DNA from: Thermoplasmatales archaeon
Lineage (GTDB): Archaea; Thermoplasmatota; Thermoplasmata; Methanomassiliicoccales; Methanomethylophilaceae
Assembly (NCBI GenBank): GCA_012520845.1
Contig: JAAYNL010000024.1
Coordinates: 1-64,000, forward strand
Length of the DNA: 64,000 bases
Reading direction: 5' to 3'
A program made the translations under genes and the position numbers. Positions 4,029-60,441 of this stretch are shown here, one piece after another (the first letter of the stretch is position 1; every line of letters starts with the position of its first letter). The notes beneath the pieces were generated by a model. That model saw only the letters and a program-made list of their open reading frames with translations. It was not told the DNA's origin and made no database searches.

Positions 4029-4871
4029 TCACCCGAGTTTGATTTCTTCCCTTATGTGCGAATCCCGCGGGTTGGCGGCGGAAACGACCATCACCGCCAC
4101 GCCCAACCCGAGGATGTCGTGTATTATCTTCTTCGCCTTCGCCTCGCCCTCCCCGTCGAAGGCGTATGGCACGCCCGGGGAGGATATGATCGCGCCCTCC
4201 CTGACGTTCCTCCCCGAGATCTTCCCGGGGGACGCGTTCAGTATCAGCAGGTTCTCCGAGATCGCCGCGGCGAGGTCGAACCTCGGGACGATTCCCGGCA
4301 CGTTGCGGGCGAGCCTCTCGGTCTTCTCGCGCCTTATGTCGACGACCTCGACCCTCGCCCCCTCCTCCAGAAGCATCGTCGAAGCCGTGCCGCCGACCCT
4401 GCCGGCGCCGATGATGAGCACGGTCATGCCTTCCAGGGAACCCCCGGCGGCCAGCCTGAGGGCGGTGACGTAGCCGCGGGCGGTTGACCAGACGTTGTCG
4501 GAAAACACGCCCCTCTTCCTGTCGACGGCGATGAACCTGTCGTCGTCCGCCATGAGGACTATGTCGAACCCGTGGGAGACGGCCTCGGCGACGCCGGCCA
4601 CGTCGCACGCGTCGGTGACGACGGTGTCGATGCCCAAGCTCCTTATGGTCTCCGCCACGGTCTCTGAGAAGCCCCTTATGACCCCCTTCCCCGAGGTTAC
4701 GGGCACCACCGCCACCGACAGGGCGTCGAAGTCGATGTCGGCCTCGGCGACGCCGGCGGCCTCGCAGGCCAGGGCGCGGAGGCCCAGGCCGGTGGTTTCC
4801 TCCAGGTATCCGTCCAAATAGTGTATCTTGGGGAAGAACCCGTCCAGGTTGTCCGCGGTCAGCCTGGTCAT
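4029..4871 (-). CDS. pylD: Pyrrolysine biosynthesis protein PylD
   Basis: PylD catalyses the last step of pyrrolysine synthesis: NAD-dependent oxidation of L-lysine-Ne-3R-methyl-D-ornithine, followed by ring closure. The 280-residue product has a Rossmann nucleotide-binding motif, VLIIGAGRVGG, near residue 155, as in the amino-acid dehydrogenase-like fold of PylD. It starts MTRLTADNLDGFFP. Its ATG overlaps the pylC stop as ATGA, so translation is coupled, and ramA follows five bases later. The position between pylC and ramA supports the assignment. Confidence 0.93.
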   Translation of the reverse strand: MTRLTADNLDGFFPKIHYLDGYLEETTGLGLRALACEAAGVAEADIDFDALSVAVVPVTSGKGVIRGFSETVAETIRSLGIDTVVTDACDVAGVAEAVSHGFDIVLMADDDRFIAVDRKRGVFSDNVWSTARGYVTALRLAAGGSLEGMTVLIIGAGRVGGTASTMLLEEGARVEVVDIRREKTERLARNVPGIVPRFDLAAAISENLLILNASPGKISGRNVREGAIISSPGVPYAFDGEGEAKAKKIIHDILGLGVAVMVVSAANPRDSHIREEIKLG

Positions 4872-6016
4872 GCCGGTCCCCCCGGGCCCTCGTCGATTAT
4901 GCGCGTAATCGATTCCTCGTCCACAATCCTGCGCAGGCAGGCCTTCCTCTTCGCCTCGACCGCTTCCATTGTCGCTCCGCCGTTAATCATCGTGAACCTC
5001 CATTCCCCCGCCCCCCCGACGTAATCCGTGATCATCTCGTCCGCGCCGAACAGGCCCCTTTCCAGCCTGGGGGCGCGGACGTTGGCGAATTCCCCCTCGC
5101 CGCAGGACTCCATCGCGCCGTCCCTTACGACGTAGTGTTCGTAGACCGACGCCCCCGCCCTCGGCTTCCCCCAGGATCCGGCCACCATCTCGCGGAGGAG
5201 GTTTATGCCCGTCGCCGCCAAAACCGCCGCGGGGGTTTGGCTCGGCAGCCTGGCGTCCATCTCGAGGACGCGGAGCCCCTTGGGCGTGTGGACCGCCTCC
5301 AAATCGAGGATGCCGTCGAGACCCAGATGCGCGGATATCGCTAAGCCGATCCCCCTCAGTTCCGTGTCCGATCCGGGGGGCAGTATGCCGGGGCGGCATT
5401 CCACCCTCTTGCAGTCGTAATCCTTCGCGGCTATGATTTCGGTGGTGACGTAGCCCGCGTATTCCTTGCCGTCGCCGATGAATTCCATGGAGACGCAGGT
5501 ACCGTCGACGTATTCCTGCACGACCGGGGTTCCGCCCGAGGATTCCACCCCGGCAATCCCCCTGGCCAATCCCTCCGCGTCCCTGGCGAGGGCGACGCCC
5601 TCGCTGCCGCTGGAGACGGAGGGTTTCACCACGGCGGGAAAACCGCATTCGGGCCACGGGGCTGGCATCGGCACGCCGAGGCGGGACATGACCGCGTTCG
5701 ATTCCGCCTTGGACCGGGAAATTCTGTAGGCGTCGATGTCGAAAAGGAACCGGCCGCCGTAATCCGAGAGCAGACGAGAGAGGCATTCCAGCAAAGCGAG
5801 GTTCTCGCACGTGGGCAGCACCGCGTCGCAGTCGCCCATCAGCGCCAGGGCCTCCCGGGGCGACTCGATCGGATCCAGCACGGCGCATCCGTCCGCGAGC
5901 GAGAAGGCGGGCGCGTCCTCCCTCCTGTCGATGACCAGGGTCTCGTAGCCGGCGCGCCTTGCCAGGTATGCCGCCTCCATCCCCTGCAGGGCGCCGCCGA
6001 CCAGGCAGATCCTCAT
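4868..6016 (-). CDS. pylC: 3-methylornithine--L-lysine ligase PylC
   Basis: PylC ligates (3R)-3-methyl-D-ornithine to L-lysine with ATP, the second step of pyrrolysine synthesis. The 382-residue protein starts MRICLVGGALQGMEAAYLAR, a Rossmann-like pre-ATP-grasp domain. An ATP-grasp core follows, with PAVVKPSVSSGSEG as the glycine-rich ATP loop and LEMDARLPSQTPAAV as the metal-binding strand. The ATG overlaps the pylB stop (ATGA) and its own stop overlaps the pylD ATG. The open frame continues upstream to 6706, but that extension is a shadow of pylB. Confidence 0.95.
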   Translation of the reverse strand: MRICLVGGALQGMEAAYLARRAGYETLVIDRREDAPAFSLADGCAVLDPIESPREALALMGDCDAVLPTCENLALLECLSRLLSDYGGRFLFDIDAYRISRSKAESNAVMSRLGVPMPAPWPECGFPAVVKPSVSSGSEGVALARDAEGLARGIAGVESSGGTPVVQEYVDGTCVSMEFIGDGKEYAGYVTTEIIAAKDYDCKRVECRPGILPPGSDTELRGIGLAISAHLGLDGILDLEAVHTPKGLRVLEMDARLPSQTPAAVLAATGINLLREMVAGSWGKPRAGASVYEHYVVRDGAMESCGEGEFANVRAPRLERGLFGADEMITDYVGGAGEWRFTMINGGATMEAVEAKRKACLRRIVDEESITRIIDEGPGGPA

Positions 6017-7059
6017 AGAGACGCCTTCCTCTCTTTGACGAAACGGGAGTATTCCGCGTTGCTCGCCGCCTTCATGCCCATGGAATCCAGGCATTCGAAG
6101 ACGGCCCGCACGGACCTTTTCCCCGATTCGATGTCCAAATCCTTCTGCGCCACGCCGGCCAGCCCCGCCTTTGGCGGAACTATGGACGTGACTACGTTCG
6201 CCCCGGCGTCCAACCTGGGGCGCAGCCCGCCGAGGCCCTCCACGTCCAGGCTCGCGGGGATGAGCTTGTCCGGGTACGCCAGCCTCAGCACGGCGACGAC
6301 CTTCAGTTCCTCCACGGTCCCGACGGTGCCGGATTCCCACATGGGCGTGCCCTCCTGCGGCACGAAGGTCATCGCGCGCACCTGGTCGCAGCCGGCGCCC
6401 ATGCGCATGACGGAGTCGGCGCGGTCCGCGACGGTGTCGCCGACCCCGGCCATGATCCCGTCCTCGGCCAGGATGCCGTGTTCCACCGCGGATTCCCTGG
6501 CGGCGACCCTGGCGTCGAAGCCCTGGTTCACCCTCAGCCTCCCGAAAAGGGACCTGTTGTACGTTTCCTGATAGCAGGCGTACCAGTCCGCCCCCGCCTC
6601 CGCCAACGCCCCGAAGGCTTCCCGGGGCACCACGCCCGGCGACACCATTATCGGGATGTCGACGGCGGAATCCACGGCGGAAACAATGTCGATGAGTTCG
6701 GAACAACCGTCGGCGTGCATGGCCGGGTCCTCGCCCATCGTCAGATCAACGAGGTTGATGTCGCTGTCCATCAGGCTCCCCGCCAGGGCGACGACCTCCT
6801 CCCTGCCCTTGCGGTACCTGGCTATGGGGTGCTGCCTGCGGTAGTGGCAGAAGGCGCACTCGTTCCCGCAGTACGTGGAGAAATAAACGAAACCGTAAAG
6901 GAAGACCCTGTTCCCGAAATTGGCGTCCCTCAGCTCCCTGGCGGCGGCGAAGAGTTTTGAAACGGATGCCGGGTCTTCCAGCGAAAGGAGCCTCAGGGCG
7001 TCGTCCCCGCCTATTCCCCCGCCCTCGAGGGCCCTGCCGAGGATGCCGTCCACGTCCAT
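6013..7059 (-). CDS. pylB: (3R)-3-methylornithine synthase PylB (radical SAM)
   Basis: PylB rearranges L-lysine to (3R)-3-methyl-D-ornithine, the first step of pyrrolysine synthesis, using S-adenosylmethionine and a 4Fe-4S cluster. In the 348-residue product the cluster ligands are C64, C68 and C71 in STYCGNECAFCHYRR, the canonical CxxxCxxC motif. The rest has the TIM-barrel and BATS-like pattern of the BioB/HydE/PylB group. The gene lies nine bases after pylS and overlaps pylC by ATGA. Each turnover may release 5'-deoxyadenosine; a possible salvage pair (mtnA and aldolase) lies a few kilobases away. Confidence 0.95.
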   Translation of the reverse strand: MDVDGILGRALEGGGIGGDDALRLLSLEDPASVSKLFAAARELRDANFGNRVFLYGFVYFSTYCGNECAFCHYRRQHPIARYRKGREEVVALAGSLMDSDINLVDLTMGEDPAMHADGCSELIDIVSAVDSAVDIPIMVSPGVVPREAFGALAEAGADWYACYQETYNRSLFGRLRVNQGFDARVAARESAVEHGILAEDGIMAGVGDTVADRADSVMRMGAGCDQVRAMTFVPQEGTPMWESGTVGTVEELKVVAVLRLAYPDKLIPASLDVEGLGGLRPRLDAGANVVTSIVPPKAGLAGVAQKDLDIESGKRSVRAVFECLDSMGMKAASNAEYSRFVKERKASL

Positions 7060-7068
7060 GGGGCGGCC

Positions 7069-7890
7069 TCAGTCTATCTTGGCGCCGTTCAGGTAGGAGA
7101 TGCTGCGCCCCATCTTCTTCACGTTGTCCCTGCCCTCGATGGCGGCGAGGAGCCTTTCCAGGCCGAACCCGACGCCGCACCAGGGCTCGTCTATGCCGTG
7201 GGCCGGGTCCAGGAAGTGGGGGCCGACCGCGCCGGAGGCCATCTCCTCGCCGCCCACCTCCACGTCGACGGTGCTCCTGTACACCTCGGACTCCGTCTCG
7301 ACCGTCTCGTACCCGAGGCCGAGGACCCCCATCGTCGCCGCTATCAGCTCGAGGAGCCTCTCGGAGGCGTCGCCCTCCGGCCCCAGCTCGACCAGGTTGA
7401 GCATGGTGAACTCGTCCAGGTGGACGTTGCTCCTGGACTCCTTCCTGAAGCAGGACCCGATCTCGAATATCCTGACTGGGCCGTCGGTGAAGTCCCTGAA
7501 TTTCCTCATCACCATGTAGAGGCTCGGGGCCAGCATGGGCCTGAGGCACCTCTTGTCGCCGACGCGGAAAACCTGCCTTCCCAACGGCGTGCCCTCGCCG
7601 ACGCCCATCTTCTCCAGGGAGGCCATGGAAATCATCGTCGGCGTCCTCACCTCGACGAACCCCATGGACACCAGGGCGTCGGCCAGCTTGGCCTCCAGGG
7701 CGGGCAGCCCGTGCCTCCTGGGTCTTTCCAGCATCTCGCCGAAACGCCGGGCGTTTGCCGCTTCCAGCGCGGAAAACGCCCTGGCGAATTCCCTGTCCCT
7801 CTCCGCGGCGGACACGAACACGACCCCGTCGTGGCTCCCGTCCCCTAATTCCCTGAGCCTTTGGATCTGAGCGTCCGTGAAACCGACCAT
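7069..7890 (-). CDS. pylS: Pyrrolysyl-tRNA synthetase, catalytic domain only
   Basis: This class II synthetase charges tRNA-Pyl with pyrrolysine. It has 273 residues, the size of the Methanomassiliicoccales enzymes that lack the N-terminal tRNA-binding PylSn domain, and no pylSn gene is seen in the window. Motif 2 is seen at FRKESRSNVHLDEF and motif 3 at GFGLERLLA. The substrate-pocket pair in TMLNLVELG (N165 and V167) matches the Asn/Val pair of the Methanomethylophilus-type enzymes rather than the Asn/Cys of Methanosarcina. GGAGGCGG lies eight bases before the ATG. It directly follows tRNA-Pyl and precedes pylB. Confidence 0.96.
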   Translation of the reverse strand: MVGFTDAQIQRLRELGDGSHDGVVFVSAAERDREFARAFSALEAANARRFGEMLERPRRHGLPALEAKLADALVSMGFVEVRTPTMISMASLEKMGVGEGTPLGRQVFRVGDKRCLRPMLAPSLYMVMRKFRDFTDGPVRIFEIGSCFRKESRSNVHLDEFTMLNLVELGPEGDASERLLELIAATMGVLGLGYETVETESEVYRSTVDVEVGGEEMASGAVGPHFLDPAHGIDEPWCGVGFGLERLLAAIEGRDNVKKMGRSISYLNGAKID

Positions 7891-7909
7891 CGAAACCGCC
7901 TCCTGGAGG

Positions 7910-7976
7910 CGAGGGGCCGGGGAATCGAACTCCGCTGGTTAGGTTTTAGAGGCCCACTGGTCCCAGACCGCCCCCC
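7910..7976 (-). tRNA. pylT: tRNA-Pyl (anticodon CTA, reads UAG)
   Basis: The minus strand gives a 67-base molecule with GGGGGGC pairing to GCCCCTC in the acceptor stem. The anticodon is CTA within CCTCTAAAACC, followed by the T-arm stretch GCGGAGTTCGATTCCCC. Unusual traits typical of tRNA-Pyl are present: a very short D loop, a long anticodon stem-loop region, and a minimal variable region. CCA is not encoded (CCT follows the discriminator G). It lies 19 bases upstream of pylS and starts the cluster. Confidence 0.93.
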
Positions 7977-12468: not shown

Positions 12469-13526
12469 TGCTCGTCACGAAATGGTTCGGGGCCTTCCTC
12501 TGCGACGGGCGCAGGGTCGTCGAACACAGGCTGCTGCCCCGGGACCCGGACGCGTTGGCCTCGAAGCTCGCCGAGATGCAGCGCGGGGGCGTGCTCCCGG
12601 AGGAAAAGGAGTTGGCCGAGGGCCGCGAGAGGCTGTCCGTGGCGGAAAGGAGGCAGTTCACCCTGGGCAAGCCCGGGATGTTCGATTCCTCCTTCATAAG
12701 GCCGGAGGACTACGGCTTCGACCAGGCCCTGATGAGGGAGGCGATGATCAGGCTGGCGAAGCTCAGGACCTCCGAGCCGATTCCCAGGGACAGGAGCCTG
12801 GTGCAGGCCATAAGGAGCCTCGACGACGTGATAGAGACGGCAAACCTGATGAGCGAGCGCCTCCACGAGTGGTACGGGATGCATTTCCCCGAACTCGGCG
12901 ACCTCGCCCGGGACAGGCGCTACGCGGAGCTCATATCGAAACACGGCCACAGGGACGCGATACTCGAGGATCTGGGTCTCGACATCGAATCCATCGGCGC
13001 CGATTTCTCCGACGGGGACATGGCCGCCGTGAGGGGTTTGGCAACCACCCTCGTCGGCCTGTACGACGACAGGGACAGGACCGAGGCATACGTCTCCGAA
13101 ATCGTGGATGGCATATGCCCTAACGTGAACGCCCTCGTCGGCGGCCCCATCGCCGCCCGCCTGATATCCCTTGCCGGCGGCCTCGACCGCCTGGCCACGC
13201 TCCCGGCGTCCACCGTGCAGATGCTGGGCGCCGAGAAAGCCATGTTCAGGCACCTCAAGTCGGGGAAAAGGCCGCCGAAGCACGGCATCATCTACCAGCA
13301 CCCGGAGGTGCACAGGTCCCCGCGCTGGCAGCGCGGGAAGATCTCCAGGGCCCTGGCGTGCAAGATCTCGATAGCGTCGCGCATCGACGCCTACGGCGGG
13401 GAATTCCGCGGGGACAAGCTGAACGGGGAATTCATGGCCCGCGTCAGGGAAATCGCCGAGAAATACCCCGATCCCCCGAAAAGACCCGCCAGGGGCAAAA
13501 GGAAAAAAGGGCCCGGGCGCAGATGA
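12465..13526 (+). CDS. nop5: Nop5 (Nop56/58 family), C/D box RNP core protein
   Basis: Nop5 joins L7Ae and fibrillarin in the archaeal C/D box ribonucleoprotein that guides 2'-O-methylation of rRNA and tRNA. The 353-residue product has an N-terminal domain, a central coiled coil (around SLVQAIRSLDDVIETANLMSE) and the NOP RNA-binding domain. That domain includes ALVGGPIAARLISLAGGL and the classic GAEKAMFRHLKSG. A basic tail, KRPARGKRKKGPGRR, is typical. The start overlaps the aldolase stop (ATGA). Fibrillarin, the usual neighbour, is not adjacent here. Confidence 0.95.
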   Translation: MMLVTKWFGAFLCDGRRVVEHRLLPRDPDALASKLAEMQRGGVLPEEKELAEGRERLSVAERRQFTLGKPGMFDSSFIRPEDYGFDQALMREAMIRLAKLRTSEPIPRDRSLVQAIRSLDDVIETANLMSERLHEWYGMHFPELGDLARDRRYAELISKHGHRDAILEDLGLDIESIGADFSDGDMAAVRGLATTLVGLYDDRDRTEAYVSEIVDGICPNVNALVGGPIAARLISLAGGLDRLATLPASTVQMLGAEKAMFRHLKSGKRPPKHGIIYQHPEVHRSPRWQRGKISRALACKISIASRIDAYGGEFRGDKLNGEFMARVREIAEKYPDPPKRPARGKRKKGPGRR

Positions 13527-13617
13527 CGCGTCGTTTTTGATTTTGTCATCATATATGTAATAATATGCTAATAGTTTTTATATCAATATCTGGATTTTCC
13601 TTCGGAGGCAAATCAAT

Positions 13618-14664
13618 ATGGGCAAAATGACGCCAAGAGAAAGACTGGATACCGTCGTCGCCGGGAAACTCCCCGACAGGGTGCCCGTCCACGACGTGTC
13701 CTGCATATCCATGTCCAAGGCCATGGGATATGTCTGGAAGGACCTAAGGTACGACGCCGAGAAATCGGCCAAGGTCGCCATGGAATACAACCGCCTGACG
13801 AAAAGCGACTTCTGCTTCGGGATGCTGGAGACCCCGGCGATGTTCATGGACCTGGGCATGAACATCTCGCAACCCGACGACAATTACGGCAACGTCCTAG
13901 GTTCCTACTTCGCGGAACCCGAGGATGTGGATTCCAAGGGCCTTTACGACCCGTACAACCCCAAGGAATCCGAATGGCTCAGGAAAGGCATCGTCGACAA
14001 AATCATCGCTCTGAGGAAGGTCAACGACACCGGGACGCTGGTAAGCGCGTGGAGCTGAGGGCCGATCACGACGGGGGGTTTCCTCAGGGGCGTGGAAACG
14101 TTCCTGATGGACACGATGATGGAGCCGGAACTGGCCCAGAAGGTGATGGCCAAATCCACGGAACTCGTGGACGGGATCATCAGGGTCGGCAGCGAGAGCG
14201 GCCAATACACCTGGTTGCCCGACCCGACCGCGTCCGGCACGATAATCAACGCCGACACGTTCAACGAATTCTGTTCCAAGCCCCTGTCCAGGATCGTGAA
14301 GGGGTGGAGGCACGACTTCAAGAACCCGATGGTGTACCACGTCTGTGGCGACACGATCCCCGTCATGAAGGAGATGCTCAAGACCGGAATAGACGTGCTG
14401 AGCATCGACCACGCCGTGGACATAGCCGAGGCCAGGAAGGTCGCCGGGAAGAATGCGATCCTGTTCGGCAACGTGCACCCGATTACCACGCTCTGGAACG
14501 GGACGCCCGACGAGGTGAGGAAGGAATCCCTGGACTGCATAGAGAAGGCCGGGGCCGACGGGAGGTTCATACTCTCCGGCGGGTGCGAGGTCACCAGGGA
14601 CACCACTGTGGAAAACGTCCGGGCCATGGTCGAGGTCGGCGAGAAATACAAATACGGGGCGTGA
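13618..14664 (+). pseudogene. MtbA/MtaA-type methylcobamide:CoM methyltransferase with in-frame TGA
   Basis: This UroD-family protein should transfer a methyl group from a corrinoid protein to coenzyme M. Read through, it spans 348 residues. The zinc ligands are seen as H-x-C in VYHVCGDTIP and a distal C in LSGGCEVTRDT. Codon 147 (14056-14058) is TGA, between the stretches TLVSAWS and GPITTGGFLRG, both in the same frame, so this is a point change and not a frameshift. The upstream part has GGAGG before the ATG and a TATA-like TTTTTATATC near 13575. A second in-frame start, GTG at 14092, would make only the C-terminal piece. It could be a recent pseudogene, a sequencing error, or a recoded codon. 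No SECIS-like element was recognised, and only four bases separate it from the next gene. Confidence 0.8.
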
Positions 14665-14668
14665 TGGG

Positions 14669-15205
14669 ATGCACCCGTTCGGAGAGATTACGCTTGGGCT
14701 CGCGGGCCTGTACATCTCCGCCACTCTGATGGTGAACCTGCTCGTGATGATGGGGCACGGCAAGGCAAAGACCGCCGCCCCCCTGAATCTGTTCACGGGG
14801 TTGCTGTCCATCCTCATAGCCCTGCAGGCGTGGCTTGTCCTCGGGAGCCCGATGACGGCGGCGCAGACGATGCTGTTCGGTGTCACCTACCTATGGATAG
14901 GCATAGGGTACTGGACGGAGGAGACGGATTACCGCTCGTTCGGGTTCTACTGCCTGTTCGTGACCATCAACGCGCTGGTGTTCGGGGCGTACACGTTCGC
15001 GAGCGACATGCCCATTCTGGGCGTCAACTGGCTGTTCTGGGCCGCCGCGTGGTTCATGTTCTTCGTGGTCATGGGGCTGGAGAAAAACGACCAGTTCAAG
15101 AACATGCTGATCGTGACGTGGTCCGCCACGATCCTGCTCTGGGTCTGCTCCCTGGGATGGCTCATCGGCTGGTTCGACTTCGCGACGTTCCTCACGTTCC
15201 CCTGA
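14669..15205 (+). CDS. AmiS/UreI-family urea or amide channel
   Basis: The 178-residue protein has about six membrane segments. It matches the AmiS/UreI family in order: an N-terminal GLAGLYISATLMVN helix, APLNLFTGLLSILIA, the signature LFGVTYLWIGIGYW, and FYCLFVTINALV. It closes with a WLFWAAAWFMFF helix. Family members are passive channels for urea or short amides across the cytoplasmic membrane. It starts four bases after the interrupted methyltransferase gene, so it shares that transcript, and aIF5A and agmatinase follow. Urea from agmatinase, or uptake of a small methylated amide, are two possible roles; the sequence does not decide between them. Confidence 0.8.
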   Translation: MHPFGEITLGLAGLYISATLMVNLLVMMGHGKAKTAAPLNLFTGLLSILIALQAWLVLGSPMTAAQTMLFGVTYLWIGIGYWTEETDYRSFGFYCLFVTINALVFGAYTFASDMPILGVNWLFWAAAWFMFFVVMGLEKNDQFKNMLIVTWSATILLWVCSLGWLIGWFDFATFLTFP

Positions 15206-56486: not shown

Positions 56487-58148
56487 ATGATGTCGTTGCA
56501 TGAGGGCGACAGGGAGAGAAACGCGATCACGAGGCCGTCCGACAGGATAATGTCCGGGGGACTGCCCCGTGGCGAGCGGGCGGGCGCCGCCCAGGCGCGC
56601 GACGCCGCCGACGCCGTCGCCGCGGGGGAAGCCATACCTATGCCGCCGGCGCAACCGGTCCCGCCGCCGACCGCCGTTCCGGCGCCCGCCCGGAAACCGC
56701 GGGGCGAGGAGACCGTGGGCGTGATCTACGGCAACGTCGGGACCAATTCGTTCAACTGCGTCGTCACCTCCGCCGGGCTGGAGAAATCCGAGTACGTGGA
56801 GGTCACCCACCACGAATACGGGCCGGTGCTGTGCCAAATCGGCTCCCTGGTCAGGAAGACCAACCTCACGATGCAGAGGGGCCTGGATTTCGACGGCGAC
56901 ACCGACATAGACGAGACCGTCAGCGCCCAGGTCGACGTCGTGGGCTACAGGGACGAGCGCAACCTCCTCCTGGTTCCGAGGACGCCCTTCAAGGCCGGGA
57001 CCGAGGTAAGGAGGGCGGGCGAGACCCTCGTCCGCAGGGTGCTCGGCCTCAACAAGAACACCAAGGCCGGCGGGTACGTGGGGCTGCTCCACGGCCACGA
57101 CCTGCCGGTGTACCTGGACATCAACCAGCTGCTGCAGAGGCACGCCTGCATACTGGCCAAGACCGGCGGCGGCAAGAGCTACATGTCCGGGGACGTCATC
57201 GAGGAGCTGATGAAGAAGGACGTCACCTGCCTCGTGATAGACCCGCACGGCGAGTACGGCGCCATGAGGGAGGTCGGCAAGGGCGGGGACAGGAGATTCG
57301 GCGTCGTGCCCCGCGGGTACGCCGACAAGATCATCGAGTTCTCGGTGATGGGGTCCGACGACGGCCTCATCAAGCCGCTGAGGTTCACCCTCAAGTCCCT
57401 GGAGGCCAGGGAGATACTGGAGCTGACCAGGACCAACGACGTCCGCAGCCACCTCACCAGCCTGAAGAAGGCCATAGACGCCCTCAGGGAGCACCAGGAC
57501 GTGTATTCCGTGCGCGACCTGATCGACGTGCTCTCCGCCGACCCGGACACCAAGAACGTCGTGCTCGTCAACGAGCTGGAGTACCTGGACGAGATCGGCA
57601 TATTCGCCACCCGCGGGAACCGGGTCGACGAGCTGATCGAGGAGGGCAAGACGACGATAATCAACCTCAAGGGGGTGCCCCCGGACATACAGGAGCTCAT
57701 CGTCAGGAGGCTCGGGACGATAATGTTCGAGATGAGGAAGCTGGACCGGGTCCCGCCGATGATGATGGTCGTGGAGGAGGCGCACAACTACTGCCCGCAA
57801 CAAGGCGCCGCCCTGTCCTCCAAGGCGCTCATCACGATAGCCTCGGAGGGGAGGAAGTTCGGCCTCGGCCTCATGGTCATCAGCCAGAGGCCGGCGAAAA
57901 TCGACAAGAACGTGCTCAGCCAGTGCGGCACCCAGATTATACTGAAGGTGACGAACCCCAACGACCTGAAGGCCATAGCGTCGTCCGTGGAGGGGCTGAC
58001 GTCGGGCATGACCGACGACATACAGACGATGCCGATCGGCATCGCCATGATAGTCGGCGCCGGGATCGAGAGCCCGCTGCTGGTGGACGTCAGGCCCAGG
58101 GAAAGCAGGCACGGCGGCGCCGGGGTCAAGGTGATCTCCGATGACTGA
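56487..58148 (+). CDS. herA: HerA helicase with long N-terminal extension
   Basis: HerA is the hexameric ATPase that works with the NurA nuclease in DNA end resection. The 553-residue protein has the HAS-barrel start (ETVGVIYGNVGTNSFNCVV), Walker A AKTGGGKSYM, Walker B MMMVVEEAHNYCPQ and the arginine region VISQRPAKIDKNVLSQ. The first 70 or so residues are an Ala/Pro-rich, probably disordered, extension that ordinary HerA lacks; internal ATGs (such as 56550) are alternative starts. NurA is not adjacent. It overlaps the DUF357 gene by eight bases. Confidence 0.9.
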   Translation: MMSLHEGDRERNAITRPSDRIMSGGLPRGERAGAAQARDAADAVAAGEAIPMPPAQPVPPPTAVPAPARKPRGEETVGVIYGNVGTNSFNCVVTSAGLEKSEYVEVTHHEYGPVLCQIGSLVRKTNLTMQRGLDFDGDTDIDETVSAQVDVVGYRDERNLLLVPRTPFKAGTEVRRAGETLVRRVLGLNKNTKAGGYVGLLHGHDLPVYLDINQLLQRHACILAKTGGGKSYMSGDVIEELMKKDVTCLVIDPHGEYGAMREVGKGGDRRFGVVPRGYADKIIEFSVMGSDDGLIKPLRFTLKSLEAREILELTRTNDVRSHLTSLKKAIDALREHQDVYSVRDLIDVLSADPDTKNVVLVNELEYLDEIGIFATRGNRVDELIEEGKTTIINLKGVPPDIQELIVRRLGTIMFEMRKLDRVPPMMMVVEEAHNYCPQQGAALSSKALITIASEGRKFGLGLMVISQRPAKIDKNVLSQCGTQIILKVTNPNDLKAIASSVEGLTSGMTDDIQTMPIGIAMIVGAGIESPLLVDVRPRESRHGGAGVKVISDD

Positions 58149-58440
58149 CGGGACGACCGTGACCAGGGAAAGGATGGAGAAATACCTGGACACGACCAAA
58201 AGGGCGCTCGACGCCCTGGTCGTCGCCACGCCCGAGAGGTCCTTCGGCCGGAGGCTCTCGGACGACTTCCTCGGCATGGCCCGGTCCTATTACGACGACG
58301 CCCTGCATTTCTTCGCCGGGGGCGACTACGTGACGGCCTTCGCCGCGGTGAACTACGCCCACGGGTGGCTCGACTGCGGGGCCCGCCTGGGACTTTGGGA
58401 CGTGGGCGGGGACGACATGCTTTTCACCCTTTACGAATGA
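58141..58440 (+). CDS. DUF357 protein
   Basis: The 99-residue helical protein matches the archaeal DUF357 family. It has RMEKYLDTTKRALDALVVA followed by DFLGMARSYYDDALHFFAGG and the conserved YVTAFAAVNYAHGWLDCGARLG. The function is unknown. It is translated from within the herA end (eight-base overlap), suggesting a link to DNA repair or simply shared expression. The 3' end overlaps the convergent pantoate kinase gene. Confidence 0.9.
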   Translation: MTDGTTVTRERMEKYLDTTKRALDALVVATPERSFGRRLSDDFLGMARSYYDDALHFFAGGDYVTAFAAVNYAHGWLDCGARLGLWDVGGDDMLFTLYE

Positions 58441-59254
58441 TACGGGCGGGCTCGTCCGTCGAGGACAGCGTTGCGATCCATTCCCCACCCCTTTGGACGG
58501 ATGGGGAGAAAGCGCTGTTGCCGAGCATGCACATTGCCGCCCGGCCGCGCATGCCGTCAAGAAACCCGCTCATTTCCGGGGATTCCACGCCCGCGGCGGC
58601 GGAGAACCCGCGGGACAGGGACATGACCGCGTCCAAGGAGGGGTTTTCCAGGAATTCGTCCACGAGGCCATCGCCGGCGTCCCGGATCCTGCGCAACGTC
58701 GCGGGGTCGCCGAGCACCTCGCCCGTCGGCATCTGGGTCCCGAGTACGGCCAGGGAAAGGACGGGCACCGTCAAGCCGGAATCCACGACCTCCCCCTCGG
58801 GCGGCATCCCCGCCCTGATCCTCACGGGGACGTGGAACCCGGACATTATGGCGGCCACGTCGCCTCGGCCGCCGCCGAGTGCCAGCTCGGCCTCGTTGGC
58901 CGCGGAGTATGCCATGCCTTCATCGAGACCCAGCAGCCCGCACGCGCAGAGCCCGGCGGCTATCGCGCCGGCGGCGGTCATGCCGAAACCCATGCCCACC
59001 GGAAGCTCGTTCACGACGGTGACGTCGGCGCCGGCGCCAGGCATCAGCCTGCCCAGGACGCGCTTGGTTATGGGCGCGTCGTGGGGCGCCCCGTCCATGG
59101 TGACGTCGACCTTCGCGTCCCGCCGGGGCTCCACCGACACGACGGCACCCATGGACAGCCTTATGCCCACCCCCAGCGAGCCCACCGGGCCGCCGGGCCC
59201 GTCCACGGGCCGGAAGAAACAGGTGACGTGCCCGGGGCAACGGGCGGTCGTCAT
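58424..59254 (-). CDS. Pantoate kinase (GHMP family)
   Basis: Archaeal pantoate kinase phosphorylates pantoate before condensation with beta-alanine, the archaeal route to coenzyme A. The 276-residue GHMP kinase has the ATP loop NELPVGMGFGMTAAGAIAAG and a short start ARCPGHVTCFF. The late segment GRGDVAAIMSGF also fits. Overlap with coaBC (ATGA) supports a CoA role. The longer upstream frame is a shadow of coaBC. Confidence 0.88.
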   Translation of the reverse strand: MTTARCPGHVTCFFRPVDGPGGPVGSLGVGIRLSMGAVVSVEPRRDAKVDVTMDGAPHDAPITKRVLGRLMPGAGADVTVVNELPVGMGFGMTAAGAIAAGLCACGLLGLDEGMAYSAANEAELALGGGRGDVAAIMSGFHVPVRIRAGMPPEGEVVDSGLTVPVLSLAVLGTQMPTGEVLGDPATLRRIRDAGDGLVDEFLENPSLDAVMSLSRGFSAAAGVESPEMSGFLDGMRGRAAMCMLGNSAFSPSVQRGGEWIATLSSTDEPARIIRKG

Positions 59255-60441
59255 AGTTTCACGCAATAATCCAGTATGGAGTCGGCCACGTCCTCCTTGG
59301 GCCCGGTTATGTCTTTGGCGGAATCCGCCGTGACGATGATCGCCGAGGACGTGGACTTGCCGGCCACGTCGATGTCGTTGGCGACGACCGCGGCGAGGCC
59401 GTACTCCTTGAGGCGCTGCCTCGCCCTGTCGGTGAGCTTTTCCTTGGTGAGGCCGGACTCGGCCTTGAAGCCTATGACCTTCCCGCACCTCTCGCGGATC
59501 AGCGGCAGGACCTTCGGCACGGGCACCAGGTTGACCTTGAAGGCCTTCCCGCTCGGTATCTTGCCTTCCTTCGGCTTCTCCGGAGAGAAGTCGGCCAGCG
59601 CCGCCGGGACGATGACCACGTCGTGGTCAATGGTCCCGACCATGGAGACGAGGTCGGCCACCGTCTCGAACCTCCTGACGTCCATGTAGTCCGGTATGGG
59701 CACGTCGCCGGCGCCCATCCACAGGGTGACGTCGGCACCCCTCTCGAACGCCCTCTCCGCCACCCTTAGGGCCATCAGACCCGTGGAACGGTTGGTTATC
59801 ATCCTCATCGAGTCGATCGGCTCCTCGCTGCGGCCGCCGATGACGAGTATGCGCCTGCCGACCAGGTCGTCCTTGGAGAGCAGCTTGAACGCCCACGCCA
59901 CGATCTCGTCCCGGGAGGCCACCTTGGCCCTCCCCCCGTCGACGCGGGGGCCGACGACCTTGACGTCCCAGGCCTTCAGCTTGGCGATGTTCTCGGCCAC
60001 CGCCGGGTTCCTGTACATCGCGTCGTGCATCGCCGGGGCGACCATGATCGGCACCCCGGAGCCCATGGCCACCGTGGCCATGGAGGTGACGGGGCCGTCG
60101 TCGATGCCGTTCGCAATCTTGGAAACGGTGTTGGCCGTCGCCGGGTACACCATGAACAGGTCGGCGCCGGAGGAGTCCCCGAGGAAGTCGACGTGCTCCG
60201 CCATGCCGGTCAGCTCGGTGACGCAGGGGTTGCCCGTGGCGAACTCCATGGACTCCGGCGTGACCATCTTCCGCGCCTCCCGGGACAGGACGGCGCTCAC
60301 CTTGGCGCCGTGGCGCACCAGTTCCCTGATGGTTCCGAAGCATTCCGTGGCGGCCACGCTGCCCGTTATGCCCATGACTATGGTCTTGCCCCTGAGCTTG
60401 TTGCTCTTCTCGCAATAGATTTCCTCTGCCGGATGCATCAT
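59251..60441 (-). CDS. coaBC: Phosphopantothenoylcysteine decarboxylase / phosphopantothenate-cysteine ligase
   Basis: This bifunctional enzyme adds cysteine to phosphopantothenate and decarboxylates the product in CoA synthesis. The 396-residue protein has a flavoprotein CoaC half (GITGSVAATECFGTIREL, VYPATANTVSKIANGI, MVAPAMHDAMY) and a CoaB half (ILVIGGRSEEPIDSMRMITN, STGLMALRVAERAFERGA, FKAESGLTKEKL). The start overlaps the tmk stop; two consecutive ATGs are possible. Pantoate kinase follows with an overlap. Confidence 0.95.
   Translation of the reverse strand: MMHPAEEIYCEKSNKLRGKTIVMGITGSVAATECFGTIRELVRHGAKVSAVLSREARKMVTPESMEFATGNPCVTELTGMAEHVDFLGDSSGADLFMVYPATANTVSKIANGIDDGPVTSMATVAMGSGVPIMVAPAMHDAMYRNPAVAENIAKLKAWDVKVVGPRVDGGRAKVASRDEIVAWAFKLLSKDDLVGRRILVIGGRSEEPIDSMRMITNRSTGLMALRVAERAFERGADVTLWMGAGDVPIPDYMDVRRFETVADLVSMVGTIDHDVVIVPAALADFSPEKPKEGKIPSGKAFKVNLVPVPKVLPLIRERCGKVIGFKAESGLTKEKLTDRARQRLKEYGLAAVVANDIDVAGKSTSSAIIVTADSAKDITGPKEDVADSILDYCVKL

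Follow-up and report, generated by a model that had tools for sequence, protein, structure and literature searches.

The in-frame TGA that interrupts an MtaA-like methyltransferase gene in a Methanomethylophilaceae archaeon is best explained as a real and very recent nonsense allele, a reading to which we assign a probability of roughly 0.65. The gene lies in the window analyzed here, a 64,000-nucleotide stretch of contig JAAYNL010000024.1 (assembly GCA_012520845.1), and is one of several MtaA-like paralogs in this organism. On this view, the TGG of the conserved Trp147 would have become TGA by a single G-to-A transition. As UGA serves this genome as its ordinary and most frequent stop codon, translation would end after 146 residues; the sequence thus predicts a truncated product in the cell and, with it, a nonfunctional gene. 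Over half of the protein would be missing from this fragment, along with every zinc ligand, and it is very unlikely to be active for that reason. The mutation would be so recent that the rest of the gene has not yet decayed. The relevant features of the window are as follows.

13618..14664, + strand: frame of an MtaA-like methyltransferase (URO-D superfamily) that contains a single in-frame TGA (translation, Pfam and structure match)
14056..14058, + strand: the in-frame TGA, codon 147; TGG (Trp) in the nearest orthologs
13618..14058, + strand: predicted truncated product of 146 residues, without the zinc ligands
14059..14664, + strand: 3′ part, presumably untranslated or rarely read, with every conserved position intact, H241, C243 and C323 among them
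13604..13608, + strand: GGAGG, probable ribosome-binding site, 9 nt 5′ of the ATG (by eye)
14669..15205, + strand: AmiS/UreI-family membrane protein gene
4029..7890, − strand: pyrrolysine cassette pylD, pylC, pylB and PylS, over the family cut-offs
7908..7976 (limits approximate), − strand: tRNA-Pyl-like sequence with CTA in the anticodon loop (by eye)

Positions 13618 to 14664 translate as 348 codons followed by the terminal TGA. The one stop among them is codon 147, flanked by SAWS before and GPITTGG after. As an earlier note on this DNA had proposed, this is a full-length UroD-family frame broken by a single TGA and free of frameshifts, since it aligns with its homologs from end to end. The Pfam URO-D profile covers the whole frame (E = 7e-48) and the coding signal of the organism's own genome is present in both halves of the interrupted gene, which together indicate that 13618 to 14664 is a real gene. 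Among solved structures, the methylcobalamin:coenzyme M methyltransferase 4ay7 is the closest match (E = 9e-21). In the alignment with this structure the zinc ligands H241-x-C243 and C323, encoded by codons starting at 14338, 14344 and 14584, are all retained, again in agreement with the note, and the stop precedes all three.

The gene resembles MtaA and MtbA of the URO-D superfamily in its full-length fold match and its H-x-C … C zinc ligands, but differs from them in its internal stop and in scoring below the curated cut-offs for MtaA (134 bits against 400), MtbA (128 against 600) and mtaA_cmuA (155 against 235). The name corrinoid:CoM methyltransferase, used in the earlier note, is therefore reasonable for the class, but the scores establish no substrate, and we refer to an MtaA-like protein without an assigned one. 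The genome, a single draft assembly of 1.38 Mb in 27 contigs that is 94% complete, contains eight URO-D matches, and only the gene in the window has a stop inside. A restart at the GTG at 14092 was considered and rejected: a good ribosome-binding site could not be recognized by eye, and a protein begun there would be missing its N-terminal half. The AmiS/UreI-family gene starts 4 bp past the end of the methyltransferase frame. The orthologs examined showed no gene of this family beside them, and the pairing may be specific to the lineage of this archaeon.

Orthologs were drawn from 61 related genomes, then from 102 genomes of the same family, and then from an alignment-query scan of named genomes; a contig scan with the window protein as query gave no match, and the alignment query added one ortholog (L137). 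The nearest orthologs share 63% (L010/L046), 58% (L137), 54% (L126) and 52% (L127) identity with the window protein, the first coming from a goat-rumen metagenome-assembled genome labeled Candidatus Methanomethylophilaceae. In the tree, the window gene pairs with this 63% ortholog (support 100/99). Codon 147 is TGG in all four, which answers the earlier suggestion that the residue in orthologs be compared. More broadly, 30 of the 45 homologs aligned with the window gene have Trp in this column, all encoded by TGG, and the remainder have Glu, Thr, Ile, Gly, Pro or Val; neither TGA nor Cys occurs there in any of the 45. The change from TGG to TGA is a transition, and the gene contains no CGA, the sole other codon that is one C-to-T-type transition away from TGA.

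Flags of one TGA on three family matches (G031, G017 and G124) were not borne out, because tblastn alignments of the corresponding loci (L015, L039 and L129) show no internal stop, and the flagged TGA of L015 and L039 is their terminal codon. A separate observation concerns a paralog in a related genome (L041, G028:C1:25000-27000, and L134), which has an in-frame TAG. It reads IW*ING where its two closest relatives have Gln (IWQING and VWQING); this TAG could be pyrrolysine in a Pyl-using order or another single nonsense change.

Apart from codon 147, the gene shows no decay. None of the 25 columns kept in at least 85% of homologs is changed in it (8 before the stop and 17 after), in line with the earlier view that both halves look constrained. 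With L011 as outgroup, 12 residues before the stop and 18 after it are changed only in the window gene, as compared to 8 and 20, respectively, changed only in the ortholog, so the 3′ part is not evolving faster. No second disabling change was found, and an old pseudogene should have one. The undecayed state of the remainder thus means that the lesion is either very recent or not real. The dN/dS ratio against the nearest ortholog was given no weight and provides no date for the lesion, because synonymous sites are saturated.

A real nonsense allele and an error in the sequence together account very probably for the TGA. The second of these, a sequencing, consensus or assembly error that hides a TGG codon, and hence an intact gene, in the organism, is a possible but distinctly less favored explanation. 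It gains from the perfect preservation of the rest of the gene, from the 27-contig draft state of the genome and from the fact that one wrong base suffices; the TGA is also not confirmed by any other gene copy in the assembly. However, assembly errors more usually take the form of an indel or a chimera than of a substitution in a nonrepetitive stretch, and nothing else near the TGA looks wrong. A recent nonsense allele is favored by the intact orthologs, which carry a sense codon at this position, and by the use of TGA as a normal stop in this genome.

Indeed, the earlier description of the genome as TGA rich is borne out by a 440-kb sample, about a third of the genome, in which 254 confidently called genes end in TGA (214; 84%), TAA (34) or TAG (6). 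When this sample was scanned for stops with coding sequence in the same frame on both sides, codon 147 of the window gene was the only internal TGA. Other same-frame TGA junctions were discarded as borders between adjacent genes, with a start codon a few codons after the stop. As a positive control, the scan recovered the TAG of a gene on contig C7 (GLPVYVAGM*TD, near 59254; L108:18113-19754, G000:C7, near 58113-59754). From what is known of the family, we take this gene to be mttB-like and its TAG to be the expected pyrrolysine position; thus, the method can see recoded stops. The genome also encodes aRF1 with its NIKS, YxCxxxF and GGQ motifs.

These data bear on leaky termination, whereby UGA would be read as Trp by near-cognate tRNA-Trp and some full-length enzyme would be made. 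Trp, the residue in the relatives, is the one that such reading would insert, the 3′ part is intact, and low-level reading of UGA as Trp occurs in some bacteria (PMC7918605). Read-through of in-frame stops does happen at times, and a small amount of full-length product may be made. Nevertheless, the sample of 254 genes and 766 TGG codons contains only this one case, TGA occurs at codon 147 in no relative, and the aRF1 motifs are standard. A single internal TGA in 254 genes gives no reason to prefer read-through, and we regard it as improbable, equally so that a leaky stop of this one gene, read at a level useful to the enzyme, tunes an archaeal methyltransferase. A tRNA-Trp gene was found neither by Rfam across the whole genome, nor by ARAGORN with introns permitted across the sampled part, nor by one sequence pattern; it may be hidden by a long intron or an assembly gap.

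Selenocysteine insertion, which had been raised in the earlier note together with an inactivating mutation and an assembly error, is highly improbable; the other two options are each compatible with one TGG-to-TGA substitution in a gene that is intact elsewhere. In favor of selenocysteine there is the in-frame UGA within a methanogen gene and nothing else. The search for selB, selD and tRNA-Sec that the note had advised found none over the family cut-off in the 94% complete genome; the weak hits of the tRNA-Sec search correspond to ordinary tRNAs. SepSecS likewise had no match in the genome in a search that finds the protein of Methanocaldococcus jannaschii. A SelB-like frame of ∼300 residues is present on contig C8 (L166; G000:C8, near 13407-13748) in this genome without other Sec genes over cut-off; the start of its GTPase domain is degenerate, which counts against selenocysteine. 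In addition, the relatives have Trp rather than Cys, and the 4 bp to the next gene leave no room for a 3′ element. The 101 nt folded here, around and after the stop, gave no better fold than shuffled sequence (z = −0.96). Archaeal Sec use has been placed in Methanococcales and Methanopyrales (PMC3941956), to which later work adds the Asgard archaea (PMC9723677).

Pyrrolysine at codon 147 is not supported by the codon itself, which is TGA. With pylB, pylC, pylD and PylS all over their cut-offs within the window, the organism is pyrrolysine-using, as had been noted, and the tRNA-Pyl-like sequence lies just upstream of pylS; its CTA anticodon loop indicates that it serves UAG. A genome-wide reassignment of UGA to Trp, as in code 4, can be dismissed as still less probable than selenocysteine: the sole internal TGA does fall at a Trp position, but TGA ends 84% of confident genes, which refutes this reading, and Trp positions are TGG. 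Thus, the use of UGA as the main stop, TGG in relatives, Sec machinery absent above cut-off, an aRF1 with standard motifs and the CUA anticodon of tRNA-Pyl together leave selenocysteine, pyrrolysine and Trp reassignment unsupported.

The preferred reading, a recent nonsense allele, places the gene with the single-nonsense pseudogenes and recent loss-of-function alleles of prokaryotes, from which it does not differ in kind: there too, a point mutation creates a normally used stop, the remainder is intact and relatives carry intact orthologs. Like the pyrrolysine-containing methylamine methyltransferases mtmB, mtbB and mttB, it is a methyltransferase gene with an in-frame stop in a methanogen that uses Pyl. 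In those genes, however, the codon is UAG, whereas here it is UGA, in another protein family and kept in no relative. An in-frame UGA is likewise what the gene has in common with archaeal selenoproteins, from which it is set apart by the lack of Sec machinery over cut-off and by Trp instead of Cys in its relatives. The TGA looks like an ordinary point change, by recent mutation or by a sequencing or assembly error, rather than a novel reading of the code.

The finding is of value mainly because it is negative. Since this methanogen already recodes UAG, its in-frame UGA might have been taken for a second recoded stop, yet one transition in a Trp codon accounts for the suspected case. The lineage has probably just lost a methyltransferase paralog, provided that the allele is real.
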